Below the pieces are notes generated by a model, which was not told the origin of the DNA, made no database searches, and worked only from the letters and a program-made list of their open reading frames with translations. Shown piece after piece: positions 1-39,108 of a stretch of DNA of 39,108 nt. How positions within the stretch are numbered: the first letter of the stretch is position 1; every line of letters starts with the position of its first letter. The stretch spans positions 1 through 39,108 of the forward strand of contig JADGCQ010000024.1 of the NCBI GenBank assembly GCA_015228925.1, in the 5' to 3' direction. The stretch comes from Magnetococcales bacterium (GTDB lineage: Bacteria > Pseudomonadota > Magnetococcia > Magnetococcales > UBA8363). Position numbers and translations under genes: made by a program.

Positions 1-1
1 A

Positions 2-51
2 TCAAAACCCTGGGGGCAATCCCCCAGACCCCTTTTTTCTTTTAATAATAT
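2..51. repeat. Solo copy of the G-run hairpin repeat
   Basis: This stretch nearly matches the 51-bp arm found at 20593-20643 and 20746-20796. It contains the hairpin CTGGGGG (10-16) / CCCCCAG (21-27), then a CCCC-T6 tract and an AT-rich end. It differs from the arm by one base and a small indel. The window begins inside or at the edge of it, so a partner arm may lie upstream. Confidence 0.8.
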
Positions 52-74
52 TTTTAATGCGATTGCCCTGGGGT

Positions 75-4005: not shown

Positions 4006-4746
4006 ATGCTGAACCCTTTTGACGTGATCGAGAAATTACAAGCGATTCCGACCGTTGAGGCTTTTAAAGCATCTATTGGCGACATTCTCGCGCGTTGTGG
4101 TTTTGAAACCTGGGCCTACACGGTCAAATTGCCTGATTCTTTTAATGCCAGTTCTTTTGATGTCCTTCATTGTTGGGATCAAGAATTTGTTGATCGCTAC
4201 GTCGCCATCCACGCTTCCAACTGCCCCAGATTCAAACATCTGTGGTTTGAAACAACCCCGTTAATTTATGACAATAAATTTATAAAAGAAGATCTAAAAC
4301 AATTGCCAAATCATCCAGAGCCGGTCCAAGCGGTTGTCAAGGATATTATCGATTTTGGTTACCATGGCTACGGATTTTCATTATCCACCCACGGCAGACA
4401 CGGCGATAAAGGGGTTTTGACACTGCAAAACAGGGATCAAAACAAAGGGGGAATCGAAGCCACCAACCAAAATTTATTTGCTGCCCATACTTTTTTCCCA
4501 TTTTTACACATGAAATATATTGAATTGAAAGGGTGGAAACCACCTGGCGTTGCCATACCACTGTCACAACGGGAGAGGGAATGTCTGCGCTGGGCCGCAG
4601 ACGGAAAAACCACCTGGGAGACAGGAATGATCTTGAACATATCCGAACGGACCGTGAATTTTCATCTCACCAACGCCCAGAACAAACTCCATGCCACCAA
4701 TAAAATTCAAGCGGTGGCCCGCGCCGTTCTTTATAACATACTCTAA
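4006..4746 (+). CDS. LuxR-type transcription regulator with autoinducer-binding fold, no luxI partner
   Basis: The protein has 246 residues. Residues about 15-175 match the LuxR autoinducer-binding domain and 184-246 the GerE/LuxR helix-turn-helix, with its invariant Glu192, Leu194 and Gly200 and the ISERTVNFHLTNAQNKL recognition part. In the ligand pocket, three of the six positions usually invariant in homoserine-lactone receptors are altered: Trp57 is Phe61, the Asp of the DP pair is Cys73, and Trp85 is Tyr88 (TraR numbering first). Tyr65, Pro74 and Gly123 remain. No luxI-type gene is in the window, so it is a LuxR solo here and may bind a different ligand. Target genes are unknown. Confidence 0.9.
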   Translation: MLNPFDVIEKLQAIPTVEAFKASIGDILARCGFETWAYTVKLPDSFNASSFDVLHCWDQEFVDRYVAIHASNCPRFKHLWFETTPLIYDNKFIKEDLKQLPNHPEPVQAVVKDIIDFGYHGYGFSLSTHGRHGDKGVLTLQNRDQNKGGIEATNQNLFAAHTFFPFLHMKYIELKGWKPPGVAIPLSQRERECLRWAADGKTTWETGMILNISERTVNFHLTNAQNKLHATNKIQAVARAVLYNIL

Positions 4747-5039
4747 AATCACGCATTGCCGGGGTTCCGCGATTATTCCCCTGGGGGAACGGTTCCATCG
4801 GCAAGCCGCAACAACCTTTGTGAACACATTGGCTCGTTCTGAGATAATTTTTCTATCGAACACGTCATCATGAGTACCTGTAATTTCTTACAGCTATCCA
4901 AAAAGATGAAGAACATCTATCATGGTGATCGCTGGAAGAGGGGGGGGACCAATTTCAGGGGGTGAATTTGCCGATGCAAAGATGGGTTGTGACCGCGTTT
5001 ATGTATTAAGTATTAAAGAACCCTCGCTCAGGGTGAGAA
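4747..5039. other. Gene-free stretch
   Basis: This region lies between the converging luxR-type gene and the minus-strand gene at 5109. I see no convincing ORF, RNA or repeat in it before the terminator that starts at 5040. Confidence 0.5.
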
Positions 5040-6450: not shown

Positions 6451-9400
6451 TCAAGGATCGTTTTCCACGATCGTTTGCCAGCCGTTGGCCTGGATCTGGT
6501 GGTCGATGGCATCCATGGATTCGTCAAAAAGATTTTTAAGGGTTGTCGCCTGGAGGTTCCAATCCTGGGATTCTGGGTCGCTACGGTGTTCCAATGTTGT
6601 GGCCAAATGCTGCAAACGGCGCAATCCCACGGTGCCTGTGGCACCCCTAAGGCGGTGGGCATGGTGGATCACTTCCTGATGGTTCTGCGCCGCAAGTGCC
6701 TGCAACAAAGCGGTAGTCGATTGTTGTATTGCAATACGGCACGATGACAAAACGTGGGCAAAACGATCTGGCGATAAATCACGAGCTATTTTTTCCAATG
6801 GGCTGGTATCCAGGAGGAGACTTTCCAGAGAAAGAGGGGTCGATTGCATCCAATCCCCCATCTCGGAGAACGGTTCCTTTTTGGCCAGGGTATGGAGCAG
6901 TTGGGCAAGCTTCTCGAACAAAATGGGTTTCGCTAAAAATCCATCCATCCCCGCCATATAACAGCGATCCACTTCCGATTTCATCGCGCAGGAGGTCAAA
7001 GCAATGATGGGGACCGTGGCTTTGGTTTGATCGGTGATGCCACGGATGGCCCTGGTCACTTCCAAACCATCCAGATCGGGAAGGCGGATATCCATCAAAA
7101 CCAGATCAAAATGGTCTGCCTGTATTTTTTCCAAGGCTTCGTGACCCCATGAGGCCAGGGTTGCCTGGGCACCCAGATGTTCCAGCATTCCCAAGGCAAC
7201 TTGTTGGTTGGTGGGTTCGTCTTCCACCAGCAGGATACGCATGGGTTGGGTCAGGGGGGACCATGGGGTGGGATAGGCCATCGTCTCGCCAGGATCATCC
7301 CCGGTTTCCAAAGGGAGGCGGATCCAAAAACGACTTCCCTGTCCCGGTTTGCTTTCCAGGCCAATATCTCCCCCCATGGCGGTCAACAAGGATTTGCTGA
7401 TGGCCAGTCCCAATCCTGTCCCCCCATAACGACGGGAAATATGTTCACCACCCTGAGTGAAAGGGTGAAATAAAGATTCTTTCACGCTATCGTCAATACC
7501 GATGCCGGTATCGGTGATTTCGATGTGCAACCAATACGGTTCGGTCTTTCCCTCTTCGGTGTACGCATGGACATGGACCCTCCCCTGTTCGGTAAACTTG
7601 ATGGCGTTGCCAACCAAATTCAGGACGACTTGGTGCAAACGTCCCGAATCACCGATGAATGATGGGGGAACGGTGGGAGCGATCACCATCTGTAGATCGA
7701 TGGCTTTTTCAGCCGCTTTGGTGCGCATCAGGTTGTGAACGGATTGAAAGAGGGGGTGTAAGGAGAATGGTCTGTGTTGCAAGGTCAGCATTCCCGCTTC
7801 AACCTTGGAGAGATCCAGGATATCGTCAATCATGAATAGGAGGCTGTGACCGGAACGGAGGATGGTATCGACGAAATCTTTTTGTTTGGGGCTTAAGGGG
7901 GTTTTTTCGAGGAGTTGCGCCATTCCCAGCAATCCATTCATCGGAGTGCGCAATTCATGGCTCATGGTTGCCAAAAATTCACTTTTGTATTGGTCGGATA
8001 TTTTCAGCTTTTCGGCTTGTTTTTCCAGCGTTTCTTGGGCATTCCTGAGGGACAGATTTTGTTGTTCCAGGATGGTCCGGGCCTCTTCCAGATCGACCGA
8101 TTGTTGCCGTAGACGGGCGTTGGTCTGTTGCAGTTCGGTCGCCATGGTCCTGGAGGCGTTCAGGGCGTCGGCCAAAGGGCGTGCTTGGGCGGTTTCAAAG
8201 GCCATGGCGATGGCATCCATGATCTCTTCGAAGAATTGGACCACCCGATCCTCGGGAGGTTCCAAAAAGGCCAGGGCGATGACACCACGGGGTTTACCAT
8301 CGTTGTGGAATGGGGCAAGAAGCAGGGCGGTGGGTTGAATGGTTCCGATGCCGGTGGCGATGCTCCATTGAAAACGGGATAAATCGGTCCAAAGGGTCGC
8401 TCCTGTTTTGTTGGCCGCTTGGCCGATGAAACCGTCACCCAGATCGAATACTTGGTCTTTATCGATCCCCAAGGGGGCGGCATGGGAGCCGGACCATTGC
8501 AACCCTTCTTTGTGGGTACCACTGACGACCAGGTAGATGACCCCGGAAACCGAATGCAAATGACGACAGAGGGATTGGACGATGCGGTTGGACAACTCTT
8601 GGATGGTCAGGCGTCCGCGCATGGCTTCGGCCAGATCCAACAGTCCATCCTGTTTCCAGCGACGCATCCGGTTTTCCTGGTCGGCGACCTGAAGATTGGA
8701 GGCCATGGTTTTCAAAGCTTGGCTGAGGCGGTCATGGGGGGAGCGGGGGGTGACTTTGATATCGAAACGGCCTTGGGAGATGGCATGGGCTTGGCTGATG
8801 ATTTTCTCCATGTTTTCAATGATTTCATTGATGGCCTTGGACATCTGATCTTGCGGGGAACGCAATTGCAGGCGGTTGGAAAAATCGCCTTCCACCACGC
8901 GATTGGCGATGTTGGTGATGGCCAGGTATTGTTCGGAAATGGTGTTCAGGGCATCACCGATGATGGTCAACTCATCCTGGGCGCGAGGATTTTCATCCTG
9001 GGCCATTTGGCCGAGGGAGATGGCATGGGCATGATTGGCCAAGGCCCGGATGCGATGGGAAAGGATACGGATGATCCAACGGGCAATCAGGGCACACAGG
9101 ATCATGGCGGCCAGGGCCAGTCCAACACCCGCCAATCGCGAGGCCATGTAAGTGCTTTCGGCCTGTTTCAAGGCCGATTGCATATCTTTTTCCTTTTTGT
9201 GGACGAGTTCGACGAGAATACGTTCGGCATTGTCCACCAGCATCCGCCCCTTGCCCGAAGAGAGTTCAAAGGCGCGATGATTGGCGTTCTCCCGGGCGAG
9301 TTCCACAACCTGCATGGATATTTGGACAAATTCTTCAAACTGTTGTTTGAGCGACTCCAGTGTCGTACCGTCGGCTGGTGCTGTCGATTGCGACAGCCGT

Positions 9401-10518
9401 TGCAATTGGTCGGTGACGTTGGACTGCAACAGGACGATACGGGCAGCATATTCATTCATTCTGCGGGTATCTTGGGTCAAAATCAAATCTTTCTCGGCGC
9501 GATGAATTTTGAATAGGTTACGGTTGATACGGTTACCCAAATGGGCTTTTTCAATGGCATTTTCCATTTCCCGACGCGCTTTCAGGACATCCATATCGGT
9601 TTGTTGGATCAGTTGTCGAAATATTTTGAGAGCCATTTCATGTTGCGGTCGCCCTGTTTTTTTGTAGACTTCTCTGGCTTTGGCTTTGGAACCGTTTTGG
9701 ATATGGCCGATGACTTTTTCGCTGGTTTCAAAATATTCAAGCCACCGATTCCGAAATTGTGCCAATAGCTCCTCTTCGGTGCGACTGGCCAGGGACTCTA
9801 GTTTGGAGGTGGTCTCCAGAACCCGTTGGCGCGAGACGATGATTGACTGAATCAAGGGTTCCGATTGTGTCGTTCCATCCTCGAACAAGAGTATCTTTTC
9901 GTTTTTTTGGGTTTCCAACAGATCGTCGAGCAGTTGACTGGCAATATGTGATTTGGCCATGGCCGAATGGGCGAGGATTCGGGATGTTTGTTTGACGCGC
10001 AACTCGCTTCGGTCTACAAGGGATTCGATACCCAGTGCCAATTGGACAAACGTTTCCTGTCCCTTGCCTTGGGAAAGGTTGCGTGCTTCAACATTGGAAT
10101 TTTTTCGGGACAGATGGACGATTTCCTGTTGAACATGGCTGTAGTTCTCAAGGATGCTGCGTAGGGTGTCTAGTTTGTGCCGATCTTGGGCATCGACCGA
10201 GGCCATGAGAGCCGGGAGACGCTGGCGCAGATTGGTGTCGATGGTGGCCATGACCTGCTCATAGTGATCCATCTCTACCGGGCTGCGGACGAGAATAAGA
10301 TTTTTTTCTGCCCGTTGTAGGGCGATTAAATCTTGAACCATACTGGTAATTTGCCGTAGATTCTGGGCATCGATGGTGACGACGAGTTCCAACGTCTTGC
10401 GGGTGCGGTCCAGCAGATCCACACCCAACCAGGTGACCAAGCTCATGAGGCTGACGACAATGATGAAACCGGCAATGATCCTTTGGGATATGGTCCGGGG
10501 CCACGGTCCTGTCATCAT
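6451..10518 (-). CDS. Large hybrid histidine kinase (TM-sensor-TM-HAMP-GAF-HisKA-HATPase-REC-HPt)
   Basis: About 1355 residues from the ATG at 10518, which has AAGGA upstream; a TTG at 10554 is the longer option. Order: a first membrane helix (about residues 14-32), a long periplasmic helical sensor, a second helix (about 463-486), HAMP-like linkers, a GAF domain (about 630-780), a coiled coil, HisKA with the phospho-His in MSHELRTPMNG (about 851), HATPase with NLVGNAIKF and GGTGLGLAIS, a receiver with Asp in VLMDIRLPDLDG (about 1141), and an HPt domain with His in HHAHRLRGATG (about 1286). The sensor holds two similar segments, RAEKNLILVRS (about 70) and RAEKDLILTQD (about 341), so it looks internally duplicated. 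It is probably a phosphorelay sensor that also feeds an external regulator. Confidence 0.93.
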   Translation of the reverse strand: MMTGPWPRTISQRIIAGFIIVVSLMSLVTWLGVDLLDRTRKTLELVVTIDAQNLRQITSMVQDLIALQRAEKNLILVRSPVEMDHYEQVMATIDTNLRQRLPALMASVDAQDRHKLDTLRSILENYSHVQQEIVHLSRKNSNVEARNLSQGKGQETFVQLALGIESLVDRSELRVKQTSRILAHSAMAKSHIASQLLDDLLETQKNEKILLFEDGTTQSEPLIQSIIVSRQRVLETTSKLESLASRTEEELLAQFRNRWLEYFETSEKVIGHIQNGSKAKAREVYKKTGRPQHEMALKIFRQLIQQTDMDVLKARREMENAIEKAHLGNRINRNLFKIHRAEKDLILTQDTRRMNEYAARIVLLQSNVTDQLQRLSQSTAPADGTTLESLKQQFEEFVQISMQVVELARENANHRAFELSSGKGRMLVDNAERILVELVHKKEKDMQSALKQAESTYMASRLAGVGLALAAMILCALIARWIIRILSHRIRALANHAHAISLGQMAQDENPRAQDELTIIGDALNTISEQYLAITNIANRVVEGDFSNRLQLRSPQDQMSKAINEIIENMEKIISQAHAISQGRFDIKVTPRSPHDRLSQALKTMASNLQVADQENRMRRWKQDGLLDLAEAMRGRLTIQELSNRIVQSLCRHLHSVSGVIYLVVSGTHKEGLQWSGSHAAPLGIDKDQVFDLGDGFIGQAANKTGATLWTDLSRFQWSIATGIGTIQPTALLLAPFHNDGKPRGVIALAFLEPPEDRVVQFFEEIMDAIAMAFETAQARPLADALNASRTMATELQQTNARLRQQSVDLEEARTILEQQNLSLRNAQETLEKQAEKLKISDQYKSEFLATMSHELRTPMNGLLGMAQLLEKTPLSPKQKDFVDTILRSGHSLLFMIDDILDLSKVEAGMLTLQHRPFSLHPLFQSVHNLMRTKAAEKAIDLQMVIAPTVPPSFIGDSGRLHQVVLNLVGNAIKFTEQGRVHVHAYTEEGKTEPYWLHIEITDTGIGIDDSVKESLFHPFTQGGEHISRRYGGTGLGLAISKSLLTAMGGDIGLESKPGQGSRFWIRLPLETGDDPGETMAYPTPWSPLTQPMRILLVEDEPTNQQVALGMLEHLGAQATLASWGHEALEKIQADHFDLVLMDIRLPDLDGLEVTRAIRGITDQTKATVPIIALTSCAMKSEVDRCYMAGMDGFLAKPILFEKLAQLLHTLAKKEPFSEMGDWMQSTPLSLESLLLDTSPLEKIARDLSPDRFAHVLSSCRIAIQQSTTALLQALAAQNHQEVIHHAHRLRGATGTVGLRRLQHLATTLEHRSDPESQDWNLQATTLKNLFDESMDAIDHQIQANGWQTIVENDP

Positions 10519-10920: not shown

Positions 10921-10936
10921 TTCCAAGGAGGCGGTT

Positions 10937-11542
10937 ATGGAGACGATTGCTGCAACCATTGCCCAACGATTGAATCATGATGACCGTGTTTTTCAAACGG
11001 CACAGGGGGAATCTTTAGCCGCGCTTTGTGGTGAACGGTCGGTCCGGGTGGAAGAGGCTTTTGGAAAAAAGCGATTTATTTTCAAGGATGGCTCCGCGAT
11101 TACCATGGGTGATGGTCGCTGGTATGTTGGCTTTGAACATTGTTTTTGTCATCGCGGCGACGGTCATTTTCAGGGATGTGGGAATGAAGAACCGGGTGAT
11201 GATGTCAGGTTGCCTGACGTGGCAACGGTCAGCGTTGAGGAGACTGTTGCGGTTGCTCCTCCACAGCCTGAGATGTTGCCCGGTCCCCCCGCTTTCACGA
11301 TCCGTTCTTATGGCCAAAGCAATTCCACGATCGCCATCGAAGGGAGTCGCAACAAGGCCCAGCGTGAAGCGAGAGCGTTGCTTTCCGCAGCTTCCGGGAT
11401 CAGCCATGCCTGGGTGATGGATACCGACGGCAAGATTATCGATGCTTATGAATTGGCGAAGGTACGGGGTGGGGGGACCAGGATTAAAAAGATTGCCCCG
11501 GTAGAATTGAATAAACTCAAGCAGATCGAATTGCCTTTGTGA
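10937..11542 (+). CDS. Unknown 201-residue protein
   Basis: A strong AAGGAGG precedes the ATG. No family is recognised. The N-terminal part (about 30-85) reads like a small beta domain (RFIFKDGSAITMGDGRWYVG) and contains a Cys/His cluster, HCFCHRGDGHFQGCG, that could bind a metal. A Pro/Val-rich linker (about 100-125) leads to a C-terminal domain with SYGQSNSTIAIEGSRNKAQ and AWVMDTDGKIIDAYEL. There is no signal peptide or membrane helix, so it is probably cytoplasmic. It is the second gene of the trio. Confidence 0.7.
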   Translation: METIAATIAQRLNHDDRVFQTAQGESLAALCGERSVRVEEAFGKKRFIFKDGSAITMGDGRWYVGFEHCFCHRGDGHFQGCGNEEPGDDVRLPDVATVSVEETVAVAPPQPEMLPGPPAFTIRSYGQSNSTIAIEGSRNKAQREARALLSAASGISHAWVMDTDGKIIDAYELAKVRGGGTRIKKIAPVELNKLKQIELPL

Positions 11543-16647: not shown

Positions 16648-17706
16648 ATGACTGACCATTCAGGAGACTCAAGGAAACGCTTGGAAGAGAAAGATATTTC
16701 TTCCTTTGATGGCAAGGATAATGCTGAACCTCATGGAGTCATGAAGGCGGCGTTTCCTCTTCTTGGATCTATAGTAAAAAAACTGAATAACCAAATAGCT
16801 CTATTTGCTTTGGGGGTTTTGGTTGTTCTCGCTTCTGTCAGTATGATCGGTGTAGAGTTTAAAATTGTCCTATTATTAGTGTTCGTAGCCATTATCAGCA
16901 TCTTTTTTATATCAACGAGTGTCCAAGGTTCTGAACAAGAAAAGCTTGAGGAATTGAACAATCAACTCAGAAAAGAATGTTTAGGTATGCGGAAAGAATT
17001 GCAAGATATAAAGGCCAATCAATCATCAACCGGCAGTATCTATGCGGGTCTGCTTGGTTTTGAGGCCGGTGTGGACTACCATTCTATTCAACAGGATCTC
17101 AATCTAGGCGGATCTTTCATTGACCACGACCATAGATATGTGAAGTTAGTTTTTAATGCCTATGTTGATAAAGATGGAAATTATTATGGGGAATATGAAA
17201 GGAAGGCTGTAAGGATAAAGCCTGGAGTTACAAAAGATTTTATTTTTCGTGTAGGTGCATCATCTGTACTCAATGCTCGAGATATCAATCTCAAAGCAAC
17301 AGATGAGAAAGGGGCGGAATTGGCATTACGTCAAACAAGTGACACGAGTCCTACGTTGAAGGAATTTGTCTTTGGACTAAAATCGGCGGTTCATCAGCAT
17401 GATGAGTTTTCTGCAAAGATTACATTTTGTTGGCCAAAGTGTATTGTTTTAGTACGCGATACGGACACGATTGATTTATCCATTTTTCCCGAAGGGATAG
17501 AGAGCTTGGAATATGCTTTGGAATGTGAATTTGAACCCGCTTCTCCTGTTTTGTACGAAATGCAGGACGGCCAACTGATTGTCTCAAGGAAACGGTTGGC
17601 CTCAACCAGGAATGAAAAAGGGAGGTATGTTATTAGCTTCTCGTATGAACAACCCAAAATAGGCGGTTTTGTGATTGCATTTAGTCGTGATGATTTGTTG
17701 GTGTAG
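16648..17706 (+). CDS. Unknown two-helix membrane protein
   Basis: The 352-residue protein has no recognised family. A polar N-terminus (about 1-45) is followed by two membrane helices (about 50-68 and 72-90). A short charged, probably coiled-coil segment comes next (EQEKLEELNNQLRKECLGMR). A C-terminal domain of about 230 residues looks mostly beta (YVKLVFNAYVDKDGNYYGEY, ITFCWPKCIVLVRD, YVISFSYEQPKIGGFVIAFS). Base composition is clearly AT-richer than the dsr genes before it, and it has its own consensus promoter; both suggest acquisition by transfer. It lies next to the degraded VapBC and restriction region. No good ribosome binding site is seen before the ATG. Confidence 0.75.
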   Translation: MTDHSGDSRKRLEEKDISSFDGKDNAEPHGVMKAAFPLLGSIVKKLNNQIALFALGVLVVLASVSMIGVEFKIVLLLVFVAIISIFFISTSVQGSEQEKLEELNNQLRKECLGMRKELQDIKANQSSTGSIYAGLLGFEAGVDYHSIQQDLNLGGSFIDHDHRYVKLVFNAYVDKDGNYYGEYERKAVRIKPGVTKDFIFRVGASSVLNARDINLKATDEKGAELALRQTSDTSPTLKEFVFGLKSAVHQHDEFSAKITFCWPKCIVLVRDTDTIDLSIFPEGIESLEYALECEFEPASPVLYEMQDGQLIVSRKRLASTRNEKGRYVISFSYEQPKIGGFVIAFSRDDLLV

Positions 17707-17726
17707 GTGAACAGTACCCGTTCGGA

Positions 17727-17762
17727 TCCCCCCCTAGGAAATTATTGAAAAGAAAGAAGGGG
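17727..17762. repeat. Partial copy of the hairpin repeat
   Basis: The segment from CCCCCCTAGGAAATTATTGA to AAGGGGTCC resembles the start of the arm at 20593 (AAAATTATTGAAAGAAAAAA then GGGGTC). It stops before the G-run hairpin. It marks the upstream edge of the decayed region. Confidence 0.6.
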
Positions 17763-17853
17763 TCCAATGATATGGTCTGATCAGGAGATTGAACTTTTAC
17801 GGTGATGGTGTATGCTGGGGTATATATCATTACCATTTCCGGGAGACCATGGC

Positions 17854-19072: not shown

Positions 19073-20536
19073 TTAAAAATCATACCGGAGAATGTCTGTG
19101 GTCCGGCGGCAGATCTCACGGCCAAAGTCAGTCCACTCCCCCTCTCCCCAATAGCGATAACAACTCGTTTGCGACGACAAAAGATGGAACAAGGCATTCT
19201 TGTAGCGGAACTCATCAGAAACCCGCTCAGGATCAGGAATCTTGCTATGAAACATGGCACTCGCCTCCTCCATCGGCCCCAGGACATTTTCATAGCCACT
19301 GACCCAGGAAATATTCTGGGTCCAAGAACCACCATCCATATGAAACCGATGATCCTCCTTCTTCAAGGAGGCAATCACCTGGGACAAAACCTCCGGCCCA
19401 TCACCCGGTTTCATCCTTTCCCATAAGCGACGCTGCAACACCGGCTGTACCACCGGCAAATCGGTCTCCCCAATCCCCGAAGCAAACAAATGTTCCAAAT
19501 ATTCCGTGACATTCATCGCCGGATGACGGCTCCCCGAACACTCCCGCATGACATCCATAAACTTGGGCGGGAATTCATTCATCATCACCCCGCCATTTTC
19601 GCCATCGGCAATCTGAGTCACCAACGGCGGTATTTTTTTTCCACCCAATGGCCATAAGTCCAAACTTTTTGCCCCATAATAAGGCTGCATCTGCCCCACC
19701 AACTTGGTATCGGAACCCTGGGTTTTGATGATGGCAATGATACTCTCGCTGCGACCATCCGAATGGGTGCAAACCAAGCGATGGGGAATGTGGGGCTGGT
19801 GGGAATGATGTCCATTTTCAGGCTGCTCCACCGTATGCTCCTGAACCAAAACCCACTGGTACCCAGAATCCTTGAGCGTTTTGACAAAATGCCATGCCAC
19901 ATCCGGGTGATTCGGAAGGGCCATCTCCGACGGAGAAAAGCCCCGAACACGGGACAACGCCTCCACACCAAAGATAGCCGCAAAATGATGCCGCCATGCC
20001 CGAACATGCAAACGATAATCCTGAACCGGGGTCGAAGGGGCCACCGGATGCCCCCAGGGGACACCCAACCATTCCACACTGCGCCTGTATTCGGGATGAA
20101 CGGTAATCTCCTTGAGGTCGGCTAGGGCATGATCCGCCCCCATCTTGCGTAAACCATGAAAAAGAGTCCCCGAATAATCCAGCATCACCCGAGGGGAACG
20201 CCCTTCGTGGATCAATTCCTTGAGCATACGACCGATGCGATGATAACAATCGAGAAAAACCGCTGCATTGTGATTATCCCCAATGCCCGGATGGTTCATC
20301 ATGTGTTGCAGATTGCTGATAATCTCCGCCTGCGTCAGTGGACTACCTCCGGCGGGAATCAGCGGTTGATGCATATGCAGCCCAATGGCAAACGCGCTCT
20401 GAATCGCAGCAAACCGGATATCGCTCTCCGCAAGGAAAGCGGGACGACCCCGGCTTGCCTCCAAACAGGCATCGATCCATAGGTTGGATCCAGATATATT
20501 AGGCAAACCACCAACAGTCTCTGGTAGTTCCTTCAT
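19073..20536 (-). CDS. Glycoside hydrolase family 57 protein
   Basis: The 487-residue protein has the GH57 first motif HMHQP (residues 54-58) and a GFSPSEMALPN segment whose Glu204 is at the place of the catalytic nucleophile. It also has the usual C-terminal helical part. GH57 enzymes are alpha-amylases, branching enzymes or 4-alpha-glucanotransferases. Position downstream of glgB and glgA on the same strand suggests glycogen processing, but the exact activity cannot be read off. There is no signal peptide, so it is cytoplasmic. Its 5' side is separated from glgA by a 204-bp palindrome. Confidence 0.85.
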   Translation of the reverse strand: MKELPETVGGLPNISGSNLWIDACLEASRGRPAFLAESDIRFAAIQSAFAIGLHMHQPLIPAGGSPLTQAEIISNLQHMMNHPGIGDNHNAAVFLDCYHRIGRMLKELIHEGRSPRVMLDYSGTLFHGLRKMGADHALADLKEITVHPEYRRSVEWLGVPWGHPVAPSTPVQDYRLHVRAWRHHFAAIFGVEALSRVRGFSPSEMALPNHPDVAWHFVKTLKDSGYQWVLVQEHTVEQPENGHHSHQPHIPHRLVCTHSDGRSESIIAIIKTQGSDTKLVGQMQPYYGAKSLDLWPLGGKKIPPLVTQIADGENGGVMMNEFPPKFMDVMRECSGSRHPAMNVTEYLEHLFASGIGETDLPVVQPVLQRRLWERMKPGDGPEVLSQVIASLKKEDHRFHMDGGSWTQNISWVSGYENVLGPMEEASAMFHSKIPDPERVSDEFRYKNALFHLLSSQTSCYRYWGEGEWTDFGREICRRTTDILRYDF

Positions 20537-20592
20537 GGTAGGCTCCTTATGGCCGCTGGGCCGTCATTGTAACCGATCAAATCCCTCCCTAG

Positions 20593-20796
20593 AAAATTAT
20601 TGAAAGAAAAAAGGGGTCTGGGGGATTGCCCCCAGGGTTTTGATTTTGTTTTTGAACTCAAATAAAAAGCTTCATTCTTCGCTTTTGACTTTGTTTCAAT
20701 TCAAAAGCAAATTCAAAAACGAAAAATGAAGCTTTTTGCTTAAAGTCAAAACCCTGGGGGCAATCCCCCAGACCCCTTTTTTCTTTCAATAATTTT
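20593..20796. repeat. 204-bp nested palindrome with perfect 51-bp arms
   Basis: The outer arms 20593-20643 and 20746-20796 are perfect 51-bp inverted copies, each with its own G5/C5 hairpin. Inside are AAAAAGCTTCATT (20664-20676) / AATGAAGCTTTTT (20725-20737), and inside that GCTTTTGA (20681-20688) / TCAAAAGC (20701-20708). Single arms occur at 2-51 and in part at 17727-17762. It looks like a MITE-like or REP-doublet element and encodes nothing. It fills most of the 313-base gap between glgA and the GH57 gene and could act as a strong RNA hairpin there. Confidence 0.9.
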
Positions 20797-20849
20797 AATG
20801 ATGGGGGGCTGGGCGGTTACACCATTATTGGTATTCCAGACGACATCGC

Positions 20850-22328
20850 TTAACGATGCCGAATGAATTCATAAATGTTCAGGTAGTCTACCCCCGGATG
20901 GTTCCAGGAATAATCCATTTTCATGCAGTTGCCACGAATTTTTTTCCAATATTCCTGGTTATGGTATAACCCAAAAGCACGAAACATCGCCGATTCAAGA
21001 CCCGCATAATCGGCGGATTCAAAGACAAAACCGTTTCTCTCTTCCATAGGCCGCATGGAGAAATCCCAATCAAATACGGTATCCACCAACCCCCCCACAG
21101 CCCGAACGATGGGAACCGTCCCATAACGCATGGCAATCAATTGCGTCAGCCCACACGGTTCAAACAAACTGGGAACGACAAACATGTCGGAACCCGAATA
21201 AATCAAACGCGAAAGTTCTTCGTTAAAGCCGATTTCAAGATGGCAATGGGGGTTATCGTTAAGCAGCCCTTTTAAATGCCAGAAATAATCATTGATCCCA
21301 TATTCGGGACTCGTCCCTAAAAGGATAAATTGGGCATTGTTATGGATTGCGGTAAAAAGGGCATGGCGAATCAAATGCACCCCTTTCTGGGTATCCAACC
21401 GTCCCACATAGGCCACGATGGGCCGATCACACTGTTCCAGCATCAACCGATGCCGCAAAGCGATTTTGTTTTCCCTTTTCCCTGGTAAATCGTCCAAATC
21501 TCTGACCGAATAATGTCCGGGAATGTGGGGGTCAAACTCCGGGTTCCACATGTCATAATCCAACCCATTCAACACGCCGCCAAACTTGGAACCGAACCGG
21601 TGTAGGGTATGACCCATACCATACCCTTGATCGGTGTACATCGCTTCCCAGGCATGTTTGCGAGAGACCGTGGTGACAAAATTGGAATAGATAATGGCCG
21701 CTTTGGTAAAATTGATGGAAAAAGGGTTGTGGTCATCTCCCATCCGGTCCAAGGAATAATAATATTCAGGACGGTTGAGACCTGTCGCATACAACGCCTC
21801 CACCCCGGCGTGGCCCTGATGTTTAAAATTATGGATGGTATGAATGACCCGACAGTTGCCCATCCCCAATGGGGCATAGATTTCAAAAAGGATGGCCGCC
21901 GTCAAACCCGTCTGCCAATCGTGGGAATGGATGATGTCGGGACGTTTTCCCGATTTGTACATGAACTCCAAGGCGGCGCGGGTGAAAAACGCATACCGCA
22001 TGGCTTCATCGTAAAAACCATAAAAAGTACCGCGATTGAAAAAATGGTCATCGGAATGGGAGTCGATGAAATAACACAATTGGCCATGGACATGACCCGA
22101 CCAGACCGTACAACGAATCGCGCCGTTCCACCATGGAACCCACAAATTTTCATAACAAACCGCCATGCCCCAAATGTGATCATGACGAATGCAATCATAT
22201 TTAGGGAGAATGACCTCGACGGTGTTGCCTCGAATACTGAGTTCACGACACAATCCATAAACCATATCGGCAAGCCCGCCGACTTTGGCAACAGGGGCTA
22301 ATTCAGAAGAAACCGTTACGATATACAT
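20850..22328 (-). CDS. glgA: Glycogen synthase
   Basis: The start is the ATG at 22328 with GGAGGA eight bases upstream; the upstream in-frame extension to 22442 lacks this. The 492-residue GT5 enzyme moves glucose from ADP-glucose to glycogen in the cytoplasm. It has ELAPVAKVGGLADMVYGL with the ADP-glucose-binding Lys15, HSHDWQTGL, and the C-terminal SLFEPCGLTQLIAMRYG and VGGLVDTV. It is downstream of glgB on the same strand, 167 bases away. No ADP-glucose pyrophosphorylase gene (glgC) is in the window. Confidence 0.96.
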   Translation of the reverse strand: MYIVTVSSELAPVAKVGGLADMVYGLCRELSIRGNTVEVILPKYDCIRHDHIWGMAVCYENLWVPWWNGAIRCTVWSGHVHGQLCYFIDSHSDDHFFNRGTFYGFYDEAMRYAFFTRAALEFMYKSGKRPDIIHSHDWQTGLTAAILFEIYAPLGMGNCRVIHTIHNFKHQGHAGVEALYATGLNRPEYYYSLDRMGDDHNPFSINFTKAAIIYSNFVTTVSRKHAWEAMYTDQGYGMGHTLHRFGSKFGGVLNGLDYDMWNPEFDPHIPGHYSVRDLDDLPGKRENKIALRHRLMLEQCDRPIVAYVGRLDTQKGVHLIRHALFTAIHNNAQFILLGTSPEYGINDYFWHLKGLLNDNPHCHLEIGFNEELSRLIYSGSDMFVVPSLFEPCGLTQLIAMRYGTVPIVRAVGGLVDTVFDWDFSMRPMEERNGFVFESADYAGLESAMFRAFGLYHNQEYWKKIRGNCMKMDYSWNHPGVDYLNIYEFIRHR

Positions 22329-22495
22329 GGATTGAATCCTCCCGTGCAGTGACCCGCTCATCCCCCTTACCCTAAGGGGCGACGACATGGGCAACCTGAA
22401 ATGATAAACAAACCTCCACCCCAACCGGAGCGGAGGTCTCATCGATTACGACCAATGCTCTTCAATGGCTACGCGACCCTTCCCCACAGGTTACG

Positions 22496-24871
22496 TCATT
22501 CCGGGGGATACCCCGCTTCACGTTGGCCAGAATTGTTGCCTTTCACCCCTTCTTGCGATGGTCCATGTTCCAAAGACGATCTGGCCATATCCTGGGCGAT
22601 CGTTTGTCCCGAATTGTCCGCAGCATAATCACGGTCATCCTCACCGGTCCGCTGATGGATCAGGATCAATCCCGCCAGTGGTGGCAACGTCAAAGGTAAT
22701 GAGTTGGGCCGTCCATGGGCAGAAACCTCGACCGTTTGCACACGGCCACCGTTGCCGACGTTGGAACCGGAATATTTTTCCGAATCACTATTGAAAATTT
22801 CCGTGTAGACACCGGGTTTGGCAACCCCCAGATGAAAATTACCGCGGACGACCGGGGTAAAATTGCAGACGATGACGATATCTCCCGAATGGCGACCGCG
22901 ACGGATCCAGGAGAGGACGCTTTGTTGATGATCATTACACTCGATCCATTCAAAACCGGCGGGATCATGATCCAGATCGTGCAACGAGAGCAAACCACGA
23001 TACAGTCGATTAAGATCCTGAACAAGACGCCAAATTCCCTGGTGGAACGGAACCCTTTCCAACAAATGCCAATCCAGGCTGACCAGATGGTTCCACTGCT
23101 GTCCTTGGGCAAATTCATCCCCCATGAACAACAGTTTTTTTCCTGAGTAGCAAAACATAAAGGTATAGTAGCAACGAAGATTGGCAAATTTTTGCCACGC
23201 ATCGCCCGTCATTTGATCCAGAAGCGACCCCTTGCCGTGGACCACTTCATCGTGGGATAGCGGGAGGATAAAATTTTCGTGGAAACAATAGAGCATCCCA
23301 AAGGTTAAATGGTTATGGTGATGCATCCGATGGACCGGTTCCTTGTGCATATATTCCAAGGTATCGTTCATCCATCCCATGTTCCATTTAAATCCAAAAC
23401 CCAACCCCCCCTCGCTGATGGGGCGGGAGACCCCAGGCCAAGCGGTGGATTCTTCGGCGATGGTAATGGCTCCCTGACCATCTTCATAGATCTTGGTATT
23501 GAGAAGCCGAATGAAATCGATGGCTTCCAGATTTTCCTTGCCACCATATTGATTGGGGATCCATTCCCCTTCCTTGCGGGCATAGTCGTTGTAAAGCATG
23601 GAGGCGACGGCATCCACCCGGAGGGCATCCAGATGAAAATGTTCGATCCAGAACAAGGCGTTGGCAATCAGAAAATTACTGACCTCCTTGCGCCCGAAGT
23701 TATAGACCAACGTGTTCCAATCGGGGTGGAATCCGCGTCTGGGATCGGCATGTTCATAAAGGGCGGTACCGTCAAAATTGCCCAAGCCATGGCCATCGGT
23801 GGGAAAATGGCCGACCACCCAATCCATGATCACCCCGATCCCTGCCTGATGCAGACGATCGACAAGGTAGCGCAGATCATCGGGTTGACCGTAACGGCAG
23901 GTTGGGGCGAACAAACCTGTTGGTTGATACCCCCAGGATCCTTCAAAGGGAAACTCCGAGAGTGGGAGAAATTCCACATGGGTAAATCCCAGATCTTTGA
24001 CGTAAGGGACCAATTCATCGGCCAGTTCCCGATAGGAAAGGCTGCGATTTCCCTCTTCTGGTTTACGTCGCCACGACCCGATGTGGAGTTCATAGATACT
24101 CATGGGGTTGTGATAATAATCATGCTTCTTTCTCGCCGCCATCCAATCGCCGTCCTGCCATTCATAGGAACTGGGGGCTTGGACGATGGAGGCATTGCCC
24201 GGCGGCAGTTCGCTCGCAAAGGCGAAGGGATCGGATTTGACGGGTTGCAGGTCTCCGTGGATCCCCTTGATTTCAAATTTGTAAAGATCCCCCGCATGGA
24301 CGCCGGGGACGAAGAGTTCCCAAAGGCCACATTCCTGTCGGAGACGCATGGAATGTCTGCGTCCATCCCAATTATTGAAATTACCGACGACACTGACGCG
24401 CTGGGCATTGGGTGCCCAAACCGCAAAGGCGGTCCCTTGAACACCACCGATGTTTTTGGGGTGGGCACCGAGGTGATCATACAATCGCCAATGCCGACCT
24501 TCCGAAAACAGGTAGACATCCACTTCGCCCAGGATGGGGGGGATGCGGTAGGCATCTTCCAACGGCACGGGGCCAGCACCGAAGTCTACCGTAAAGCGAT
24601 GATTGAACCGTTCGGCGGGCTGGCGCAGGTGGATGGCATAGAGACCCCAATCATGGATCAACTCCATCCTTCCCATATTTTTTCCAGTATCCCGGTTGAC
24701 CAGTTCAATGTACAAGGCACCGGGGAGGAAGGTACGCACCACCAGGGAACCATCGTGGAGTTGATGCATCCCCAGGAATGCAAACGGGTCACGACAGTAG
24801 CCGTTGACCACCTGATCGATGAAATGGTGCGGGTGTATGACGTGATCCGATTCTTGGTGCTGGTGTGTCAT
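22496..24871 (-). CDS. glgB: 1,4-alpha-glucan branching enzyme
   Basis: The start is the ATG at 24871 (GAGGGG close upstream), not 24955. About 791 residues. An N-terminal double carbohydrate-binding/E-set region (DPFAFLGMHQ, FAVWAPNAQRVSVVGNFNNW) precedes the GH13 barrel. The catalytic residues are seen in DALRVDAV (Asp about 420), ITIAEEST (Glu about 473) and LPLSHDEVVHGKGS (Asp about 541). After the normal end (LPPLAGLILIHQ) there is a polar tail of about 50 residues that the family usually lacks. It makes alpha-1,6 branches in glycogen and probably works with glgA and the GH57 protein. Confidence 0.96.
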   Translation of the reverse strand: MTHQHQESDHVIHPHHFIDQVVNGYCRDPFAFLGMHQLHDGSLVVRTFLPGALYIELVNRDTGKNMGRMELIHDWGLYAIHLRQPAERFNHRFTVDFGAGPVPLEDAYRIPPILGEVDVYLFSEGRHWRLYDHLGAHPKNIGGVQGTAFAVWAPNAQRVSVVGNFNNWDGRRHSMRLRQECGLWELFVPGVHAGDLYKFEIKGIHGDLQPVKSDPFAFASELPPGNASIVQAPSSYEWQDGDWMAARKKHDYYHNPMSIYELHIGSWRRKPEEGNRSLSYRELADELVPYVKDLGFTHVEFLPLSEFPFEGSWGYQPTGLFAPTCRYGQPDDLRYLVDRLHQAGIGVIMDWVVGHFPTDGHGLGNFDGTALYEHADPRRGFHPDWNTLVYNFGRKEVSNFLIANALFWIEHFHLDALRVDAVASMLYNDYARKEGEWIPNQYGGKENLEAIDFIRLLNTKIYEDGQGAITIAEESTAWPGVSRPISEGGLGFGFKWNMGWMNDTLEYMHKEPVHRMHHHNHLTFGMLYCFHENFILPLSHDEVVHGKGSLLDQMTGDAWQKFANLRCYYTFMFCYSGKKLLFMGDEFAQGQQWNHLVSLDWHLLERVPFHQGIWRLVQDLNRLYRGLLSLHDLDHDPAGFEWIECNDHQQSVLSWIRRGRHSGDIVIVCNFTPVVRGNFHLGVAKPGVYTEIFNSDSEKYSGSNVGNGGRVQTVEVSAHGRPNSLPLTLPPLAGLILIHQRTGEDDRDYAADNSGQTIAQDMARSSLEHGPSQEGVKGNNSGQREAGYPPE

Positions 24872-25025
24872 GGTGCCCCCTCTTTTTGGACGACGGCCTT
24901 CGTGAGGTACGTTTTGATGTCGCATTTTCACAGTGCGGTGAAATATAGCATCCACAAGCGCATCTCTGCCATGCTTTTCCGCTTGACGGCACTTTCGTTG
25001 GCAGGTTATCGGGTGTGTACTTCGT

Positions 25026-39054: not shown

Positions 39055-39108
<54 letters not shown>

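Follow-up and report, generated by a model that had tools for sequence, protein, structure and literature searches.

The minus-strand sugar-storage genes glgA (glycogen synthase) and a GH57-family gene in a Magnetococcales bacterium, a relative of magnetotactic bacteria, are separated by a long palindrome, and its position raises the question of what kind of element it is, how it came to stand there and what it may do to its neighbours. The window, the whole stretch of 39,108 bp that was analyzed, is the complete contig C136 of an assembly of 4.25 Mb in 219 contigs. The best named relatives of its glgA were Magnetococcales MAGs, with an identity of 85-89 percent.

Boundaries of the element

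First, the palindrome itself was examined. A preliminary description had placed a 204-bp palindrome at 20593-20796, with perfect 51-nt outer ends and a separate hairpin in each arm, and all of this was borne out; an inner imperfect stem was also present (Table 1). The RNA of the palindrome was predicted to fold with -130.3 kcal/mol, against a mean of -46.4 for shuffled sequences (z = -20.3), and a DNA strand of the element likewise folded far better than its shuffles (z = -16.9). No match to Rfam at the gathering score was found in the window, including its last positions (39070-39108, at the contig end), which carry what we take to be a 23S rRNA-like motif.

Table 1. Positions of the element, its parts, the neighbouring genes and related sequences in the window.
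Feature	Position	Strand	Basis or remark
GH57-family gene, flanking	19073..20536	-	Pfam PF03065
glgA, glycogen synthase, flanking	20850..22442	-	Pfam PF08323
glgB, branching enzyme, same cluster, upstream	22496..24955	-	Pfam PF02922, PF02806, PF22019
Full element, 252 bp, IS66-like ends and palindromic core	20569..20820	.	Outward inverted repeat; end motif and duplications of sister copies; spacer arithmetic
Left terminal inverted repeat, shell A, GTAACCGATCAAATCCCTCC	20569..20588	+	Resembles ends of IS66-family L181, L183, L189
Right terminal inverted repeat, shell A, minus reading GTAACCGCCCAGCCCCCCAT	20801..20820	-	End motif in sister copies
Left 51-nt core arm	20593..20643	+	Exact reverse complement of right arm; near family consensus
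Right 51-nt core arm	20746..20796	-	Exact reverse complement of left arm; family consensus comparison
Left-arm local hairpin, CTGGGGG-ATTG-CCCCCAG	20618..20635	.	Terminator-like, both strands
Right-arm local hairpin	20754..20771	.	Terminator-like, both strands
Inner imperfect stem, most variable part of the family	20650..20751	.	Arms 20650-20696 and 20705-20751
Truncated relic, one shell-A end and start of a core arm	17714..17764	+	Sequence similarity
Copy cut by contig start, core arm with the outermost 15 bases of an ISAs1-type end	1..70	-	By-eye reading against the end of L193

The 204 bp did not stand as the whole element, however. The inverted repeat extended outward past the palindrome to 20568-20821 (85% over 80 nt), and the palindrome was found to be the inside of a 252-bp element. 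It is these outer ends, missed at first, that bear the signature of mobility. The element contained terminal inverted repeats and no ORF of at least 80 aa, as is typical of a short, non-coding MITE.

The spacer between glgA and the GH57 gene was then compared with that of four named relatives, and the element was absent from all four. The spacer of the window is 313 bp, and 61 bp of it remain when the element is subtracted; two relatives had short, element-free spacers of 61 bp (L064) and 54 bp (L063). In the other two the spacer was 249 bp (L061) and 209 bp (L062), occupied by other sequence. That of L062 (HA3dbin1) held a different palindromic element with the ends AAACCGCA and TGCGGTTT, which was missing from the similar spacer of L064, and a similar one was seen inside a core copy in genome G001 (L123). 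The flanks of the window copy were identical at 2 of 8 bases, or at 6 of 9 when nine bases were compared; 6 or more was reached in only 1 of 132 cross-pairs, but the length of nine was picked post hoc. No clear duplication was thus seen, and the one expected here is decayed or doubtful.

Spread and structure of the family

The preliminary description had also suggested a dispersed family, and this was confirmed by the search for arm hairpins (loop 3-6), which gave 312 in the genome of the window (G000) and none with a reversed-pattern control. At two arms per copy this amounts by arithmetic to about 156 copies. The seven other genomes of the genus had 3, 240, 163, 42, 89, 12 and 57 arm hairpins, among them 3 in G001, 163 in G003 and 57 in G007, which is 74% complete. 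With a stricter pattern, exact arm matches were obtained in eight of the 48 genomes of the class; these eight all belong to this genus, and the other 40 genomes gave no match. No match was obtained on plasmids by blastn of the 252-bp element, or on viral contigs by an exact search for a 30-nt arm string. The element was not described in the excerpts of open-licence literature on Magnetococcales repeats, MITEs and ISAs1 that were among the matches listed. The named Magnetococcales relative L063 carried hairpins of similar build with other loops (4671-4775, 8074-8172 and 10929-11225), including one inverted pair, and this kind of hairpin may thus be more widespread than the arm sequence itself.

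Arms were often found at the ends of contigs. Among the first 30 listed arms with loci, a biased sample taken mostly from short contigs, 22 were no more than about 60 nt away from a contig end, seven were internally paired and one was internal with its partner not seen. Palindromes of this kind break assemblies: the strand was minus for each of the 12 arms at contig starts and plus for each of the 10 at contig ends, as expected if the assembly breaks inside copies. The arm at the start of the window, earlier taken for a solo arm, is such a case. Since the window is a whole contig, this arm represents a copy cut by the assembly, and the end of the cut copy showed the outer 15 bases of the shell F motif described below (AATGCGATTGCCCTG, at 56-70). 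A partial solo arm had been reported at 17727 as well; related sequence was indeed present there, but as the truncated end of a copy.

For analysis of individual copies, 80 rows were collected, of which four proved to be repeat counts through an inner or chance arm, leaving 76 distinct copies. G000 contributed 38 of these, the rest came mainly from G002, and a few from G001, G003 and G004. Only copies with at least 150 bp of flank were included, so the sample contains no copies at contig ends. End types were called at up to 3-4 mismatches, and one-sided calls may include chance matches. The flank, shell F, neighbour-gene and consensus analyses used the 80 rows; the counts of copies with shell A or shell F on both sides (A/A, F/F) and of shell E ends were the same in both sets.

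Perfect symmetry over 51 nt was found in seven of the 76 copies. Arms differed within a copy about as much as between copies (medians of 3 and 3 in the own genome, n = 38, and of 3 and 4 over all 76). The proposal that perfect arms indicate recent origin or active correction thus found no support, and correction within copies is not required, since the arms of one copy in the own genome were no closer to each other than to those of other copies.

Measured from the outer edge of one arm hairpin to that of the other, the 76 copies ranged from 76 to 450 bp, with a median of 180. The interiors looked like mosaics of recurring segments, and some enclosed a longer palindrome of a different type or a further hairpin element. 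In L049, L106, L107, L109 and L112 a long nested palindrome (CGCGCCCCTTATCCCGAAGCATTTTT...) unlike the usual stem took its place. Of five sites that G000 and G002 have in common, at least four showed an altered interior, and the arms were mostly unchanged. The right arm of one shared copy (L146, about 10390-10500, contig C28 of G002) consisted of C and T runs, a probable assembly error. The pair L009/L149 was considered as a plain empty site and dropped, as the outer ends were still present in G002; L149 (about 17630-17690, contig C37 of G002), compared with L009, seems to have lost the core by deletion between short ATT repeats. At L148 (about 1800-1860) the outer palindromes were likewise present and the core was missing.

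Ends of the copies and their likely transposases

The flanks of the core were then classified into three kinds of shell, A, F and E. A recognised shell was missing from 24 of the 76 copies and was present on one side only in 22. In copies without a shell, the edge of the core was AAAATTATT.

Shell A, the motif GTAACCGTTCAGAYCCCCCC, flanked the core on both sides in copies elsewhere and in the window copy, which was one of 12 A/A copies among the 76. The outer ends of the window copy (GTAACCG...CCCCCC) were like those on complete elements of the IS66 family in the genus, as would be expected of an IS66-type MITE. Excerpts of the literature give IS66 ends as GTAAGCG with 8-bp repeats (PMC11946415), and some ends in the IS66 family carry GTAACCGTCCGGGCA (PMC12888890). 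In three of the A/A copies the duplication covered 8, 8 and 7 of the 8 bases compared, and one more copy had 9 of 9. A convincing duplication was missing from the other eight, including the window copy and another at 7 of 9. In controls with wrong partners, 6 of 8 was reached in 3 of 132 pairs and 8 of 9 in 1 of 132. Some A/A duplications fit 9 bp instead of the 8 bp of IS66, and the 8-bp length was found in three of the 12. Copy L013 is not counted in the 12 because its left A end is more distant from the core; it showed a perfect 9-bp duplication (CTTCAATGG on both sides).

The strongest evidence for transposition is given by reciprocal empty sites, at one site only. Here one and the same spacer carries an A-ended copy in both G000 and G002 (L013 and L154), but the two insertion points are 18 bp apart and the duplications differ (9 bp in G000, 7 of 8 in G002). 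The G000 copy was flanked by CTTCAATGG, and G002 was uninterrupted at that place (CGTCAATGG); the G002 copy, whose left arm was partly lost, was flanked by CGCTGATA and CGCTGATG, and G000 was uninterrupted there. These reciprocal sites and the element-free glgA/GH57 spacers of L063 and L064 show the insertion polymorphism typical of MITEs.

Matches to the IS66 family, some of them fragmentary, were found in all eight genomes of the genus. Two complete-looking elements exceeded the NCBIfam cut-off for IS66 transposases. L183 in G006 was 1737 bp long, with a 476-residue frame, GTAACTATTCAGCACCCCCC at both ends and 7 of 8 bases duplicated; L189 in G003 was 1783 bp long, with 549 residues, GTACCCGTTCAGACTCCCC at both ends and no duplication. 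An intact IS66 element was not found in the own genome, where the search gave no more than a 3' fragment at the end of a contig, with the terminus GTAACTGCCCAGGTACCCCCCC and 89.7 bits, below the NCBIfam cut-off of 180. The family resembles IS66 elements and MITEs derived from them in its ends (GTAAC-G), which are similar to those of IS66-family elements in the same genus, and, to judge by some of the copies, probably in an 8-bp duplication. It differs from them in its interior, which is an unrelated palindromic core that occurs with other ends too. The likeness of the ends at the window locus to those of IS66 elements of the genus makes it most likely that the element was inserted there by an IS66-type transposase supplied in trans.

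Shell F (CAGGGCAATCGCATTTGRAAT) was present on both sides of six copies, five in G002 and one in G000. All six showed duplications, with 10, 9, 9, 9 and 9 of 10 bases in five and 9 of 9 in the sixth, against maxima of 6/10 and 5/9 in cross-pairs. The own genome also contained an intact ISAs1-family element (L193) of 1416 bp, with a 381-residue frame, an exact 10-bp duplication and, on both sides, 22-bp ends that equal the ends of shell F. Its transposase scored 404 bits against an NCBIfam cut-off of 70 for the ISAs1 family. CAGGG ends and 10-bp repeats are given for ISAs1 in an excerpt of PMC11946415, and the shell F copies have CAGGG ends and the 10-bp duplication in common with the ISAs1 element, as is expected of ISAs1-type MITEs. 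Unlike ISAs1 elements, they carry no transposase gene, and the window copy has no ISAs1 ends.

In all, target-site duplications were found in some members of the family (4 of 12 A/A copies and L013, and 6 of 6 F/F copies). Together with the IS elements that have similar ends, they uphold the earlier suggestion of a non-coding family in need of a transposase in trans; to judge by ends and duplications, enzymes of the IS66 and ISAs1 types probably moved the copies with the matching ends. Over all 80 rows, however, exact direct repeats of at least 8 bases in the flanks numbered 8 against 4.2 expected from cross-pairs, an excess of only about twofold. It was also considered that the core is the sole mobile unit and that shells A, E and F are repeats which it hit by chance. 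The 24 copies without a recognised shell would agree with this, as would the interiors that also carry other nested palindromes. However, the observed duplications lay outside shells A and F, which indicates that shell and core moved together, and a scan of the flanks gave no clear duplication at the edge of the core. A core moving alone is therefore unlikely.

Shell E (GGGCGTGTTGACATTCAAT) had TA directly outside 18 of its 32 ends, position -1 was A in 28 and position -2 was T in 20, and the positions beyond were variable; the 32 ends include a few orthologous pairs. A TA target is the rule in the IS630/Tc1 group, and the flanks of shell E would fit such a target. A DDE_3 gene, the putative source of shell E, was absent from G000, G002 and G003 and was found in the five other genomes, where no E end within 4 mismatches was detected at the DDE_3 loci. 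In four copies shell E separated shell F from the core, and in L013 it separated shell A from the core. This position, between outer shells and core, suggests that an E-ended core entered other MITEs.

Proposed origin of the family and possible effect on neighbouring genes

Taken together, the element is very probably a MITE, a non-autonomous DNA transposon, whose core occurs with IS66-type ends, ISAs1-type ends and ends often flanked by TA, likeliest by nesting. Its membership among MITEs is well supported, the shared mobilisation is likely, and the order of nesting is a proposal: a core with TA-type ends would have inserted into MITEs of two other kinds, whose outer ends would then have spread the entire nest. 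As one core was found in different shells with duplications, two or three unrelated transposases have probably moved one palindromic passenger, and nested insertion may have been the route. We see an even chance that this passenger became uncoupled from any single transposase by nesting in, or recombining with, IS66, ISAs1 and TA-targeting MITEs, and so reached about 150 copies in one species and almost none in a congener.

What is unusual here is that one palindromic core occurs in two or more shells that differ in transposase specificity. In the usual description a MITE is the satellite of a single parent transposon, and a core in two well-evidenced end types and a probable third would show escape from dependence on one parent. 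Arm numbers in the genus form a natural series from 3 to 312, and one of the genomes has an intact candidate ISAs1 source, so that dependence on each transposase can be tested.

Correia elements of Neisseria have one kind of end, in contrast to the several kinds found here around one core. They are similar in that they are described, in an excerpt of PMC10969869, as short, high-copy, non-coding MITEs with transcript hairpins. The same excerpt describes BOX, RUP and SPRITE of Streptococcus pneumoniae as small elements inserted in one another, SPRITE being terminator-like; here, however, the nesting is concentric and the target duplications lie on the outer ends. TIMEs (Tn3-derived inverted-repeat miniature elements) are likewise mosaic, non-autonomous and without a transposase gene, according to PMC4133298, but their ends come from one transposon family.

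REPINs, in which two inverted REP hairpins are moved by a RAYT (a Y1 tyrosine transposase), were also considered. Like the present family, they are extragenic doublets of inverted hairpin repeats, and an excerpt of PMC3116915 leads one to expect REPs near the RAYT gene. The family has paired inverted, extragenic hairpins in high copy, and Y1_Tnp matches were found in seven of the eight genomes of the genus, with two Y1_Tnp genes in the own genome. However, 10 of 11 Y1_Tnp loci in the seven genomes had no arm and the eleventh had one (several of these loci are shortened by contig ends, and L130 and L132 overlap). Nor did Y1 matches follow copy number: G003, with 163 arms, had one weak match, G007, with 57, had none, and G001, with 3, had one broken by stops. 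The association with RAYT that marks REPINs was thus not seen, and the duplications present here indicate a DDE transposase. The duplications and the reciprocal empty sites point to a MITE and not to a RAYT-driven REPIN, which is very unlikely. At L025 (1-330 and 1189-1956), a RAYT-like Y1_Tnp gene lay at a distance of about 0.9 kb from repeats that differ from the arms (GGGGGACACCATCCCTATT) and may be a REP family of its own.

Next, we investigated whether the element could act on its neighbours. In an 801-bp region, five terminator-like sites were found against a shuffle mean of 1.1, and each arm was terminator-like on both strands. Around the 68 copies with called neighbours, 43 gene pairs were tandem, 17 convergent and 8 divergent; background gaps of at least 100 bp, from simple ORF calling and not from a gene finder, comprised 110 tandem, 47 convergent and 55 divergent pairs. 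Divergent gaps were thus avoided (8/68 vs 55/212, p = 0.019). This, the conserved arms and the four terminator-like arm sites, two per strand, would be expected of a host terminator or RNA-processing module that is retained for its function and mobile only incidentally. However, convergent gaps were not enriched (17/68 vs 47/212, p = 0.62), the number of arms varied more than a hundredfold within one genus, the glgA/GH57 spacers of the four named relatives lacked the element, and target duplications exist. Retention as a host module is very unlikely. A two-way terminator or RNase processing site is predicted between glgA and GH57. The two G-rich hairpins would end or process transcripts in both directions and reduce read-through from glgBA into GH57, so that an uncoupling of GH57 from glgBA, as proposed earlier, is possible. 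Elsewhere in the window, a three-copy tandem repeat of 30 bp (1165-1276) overlapped ORFs of both strands.
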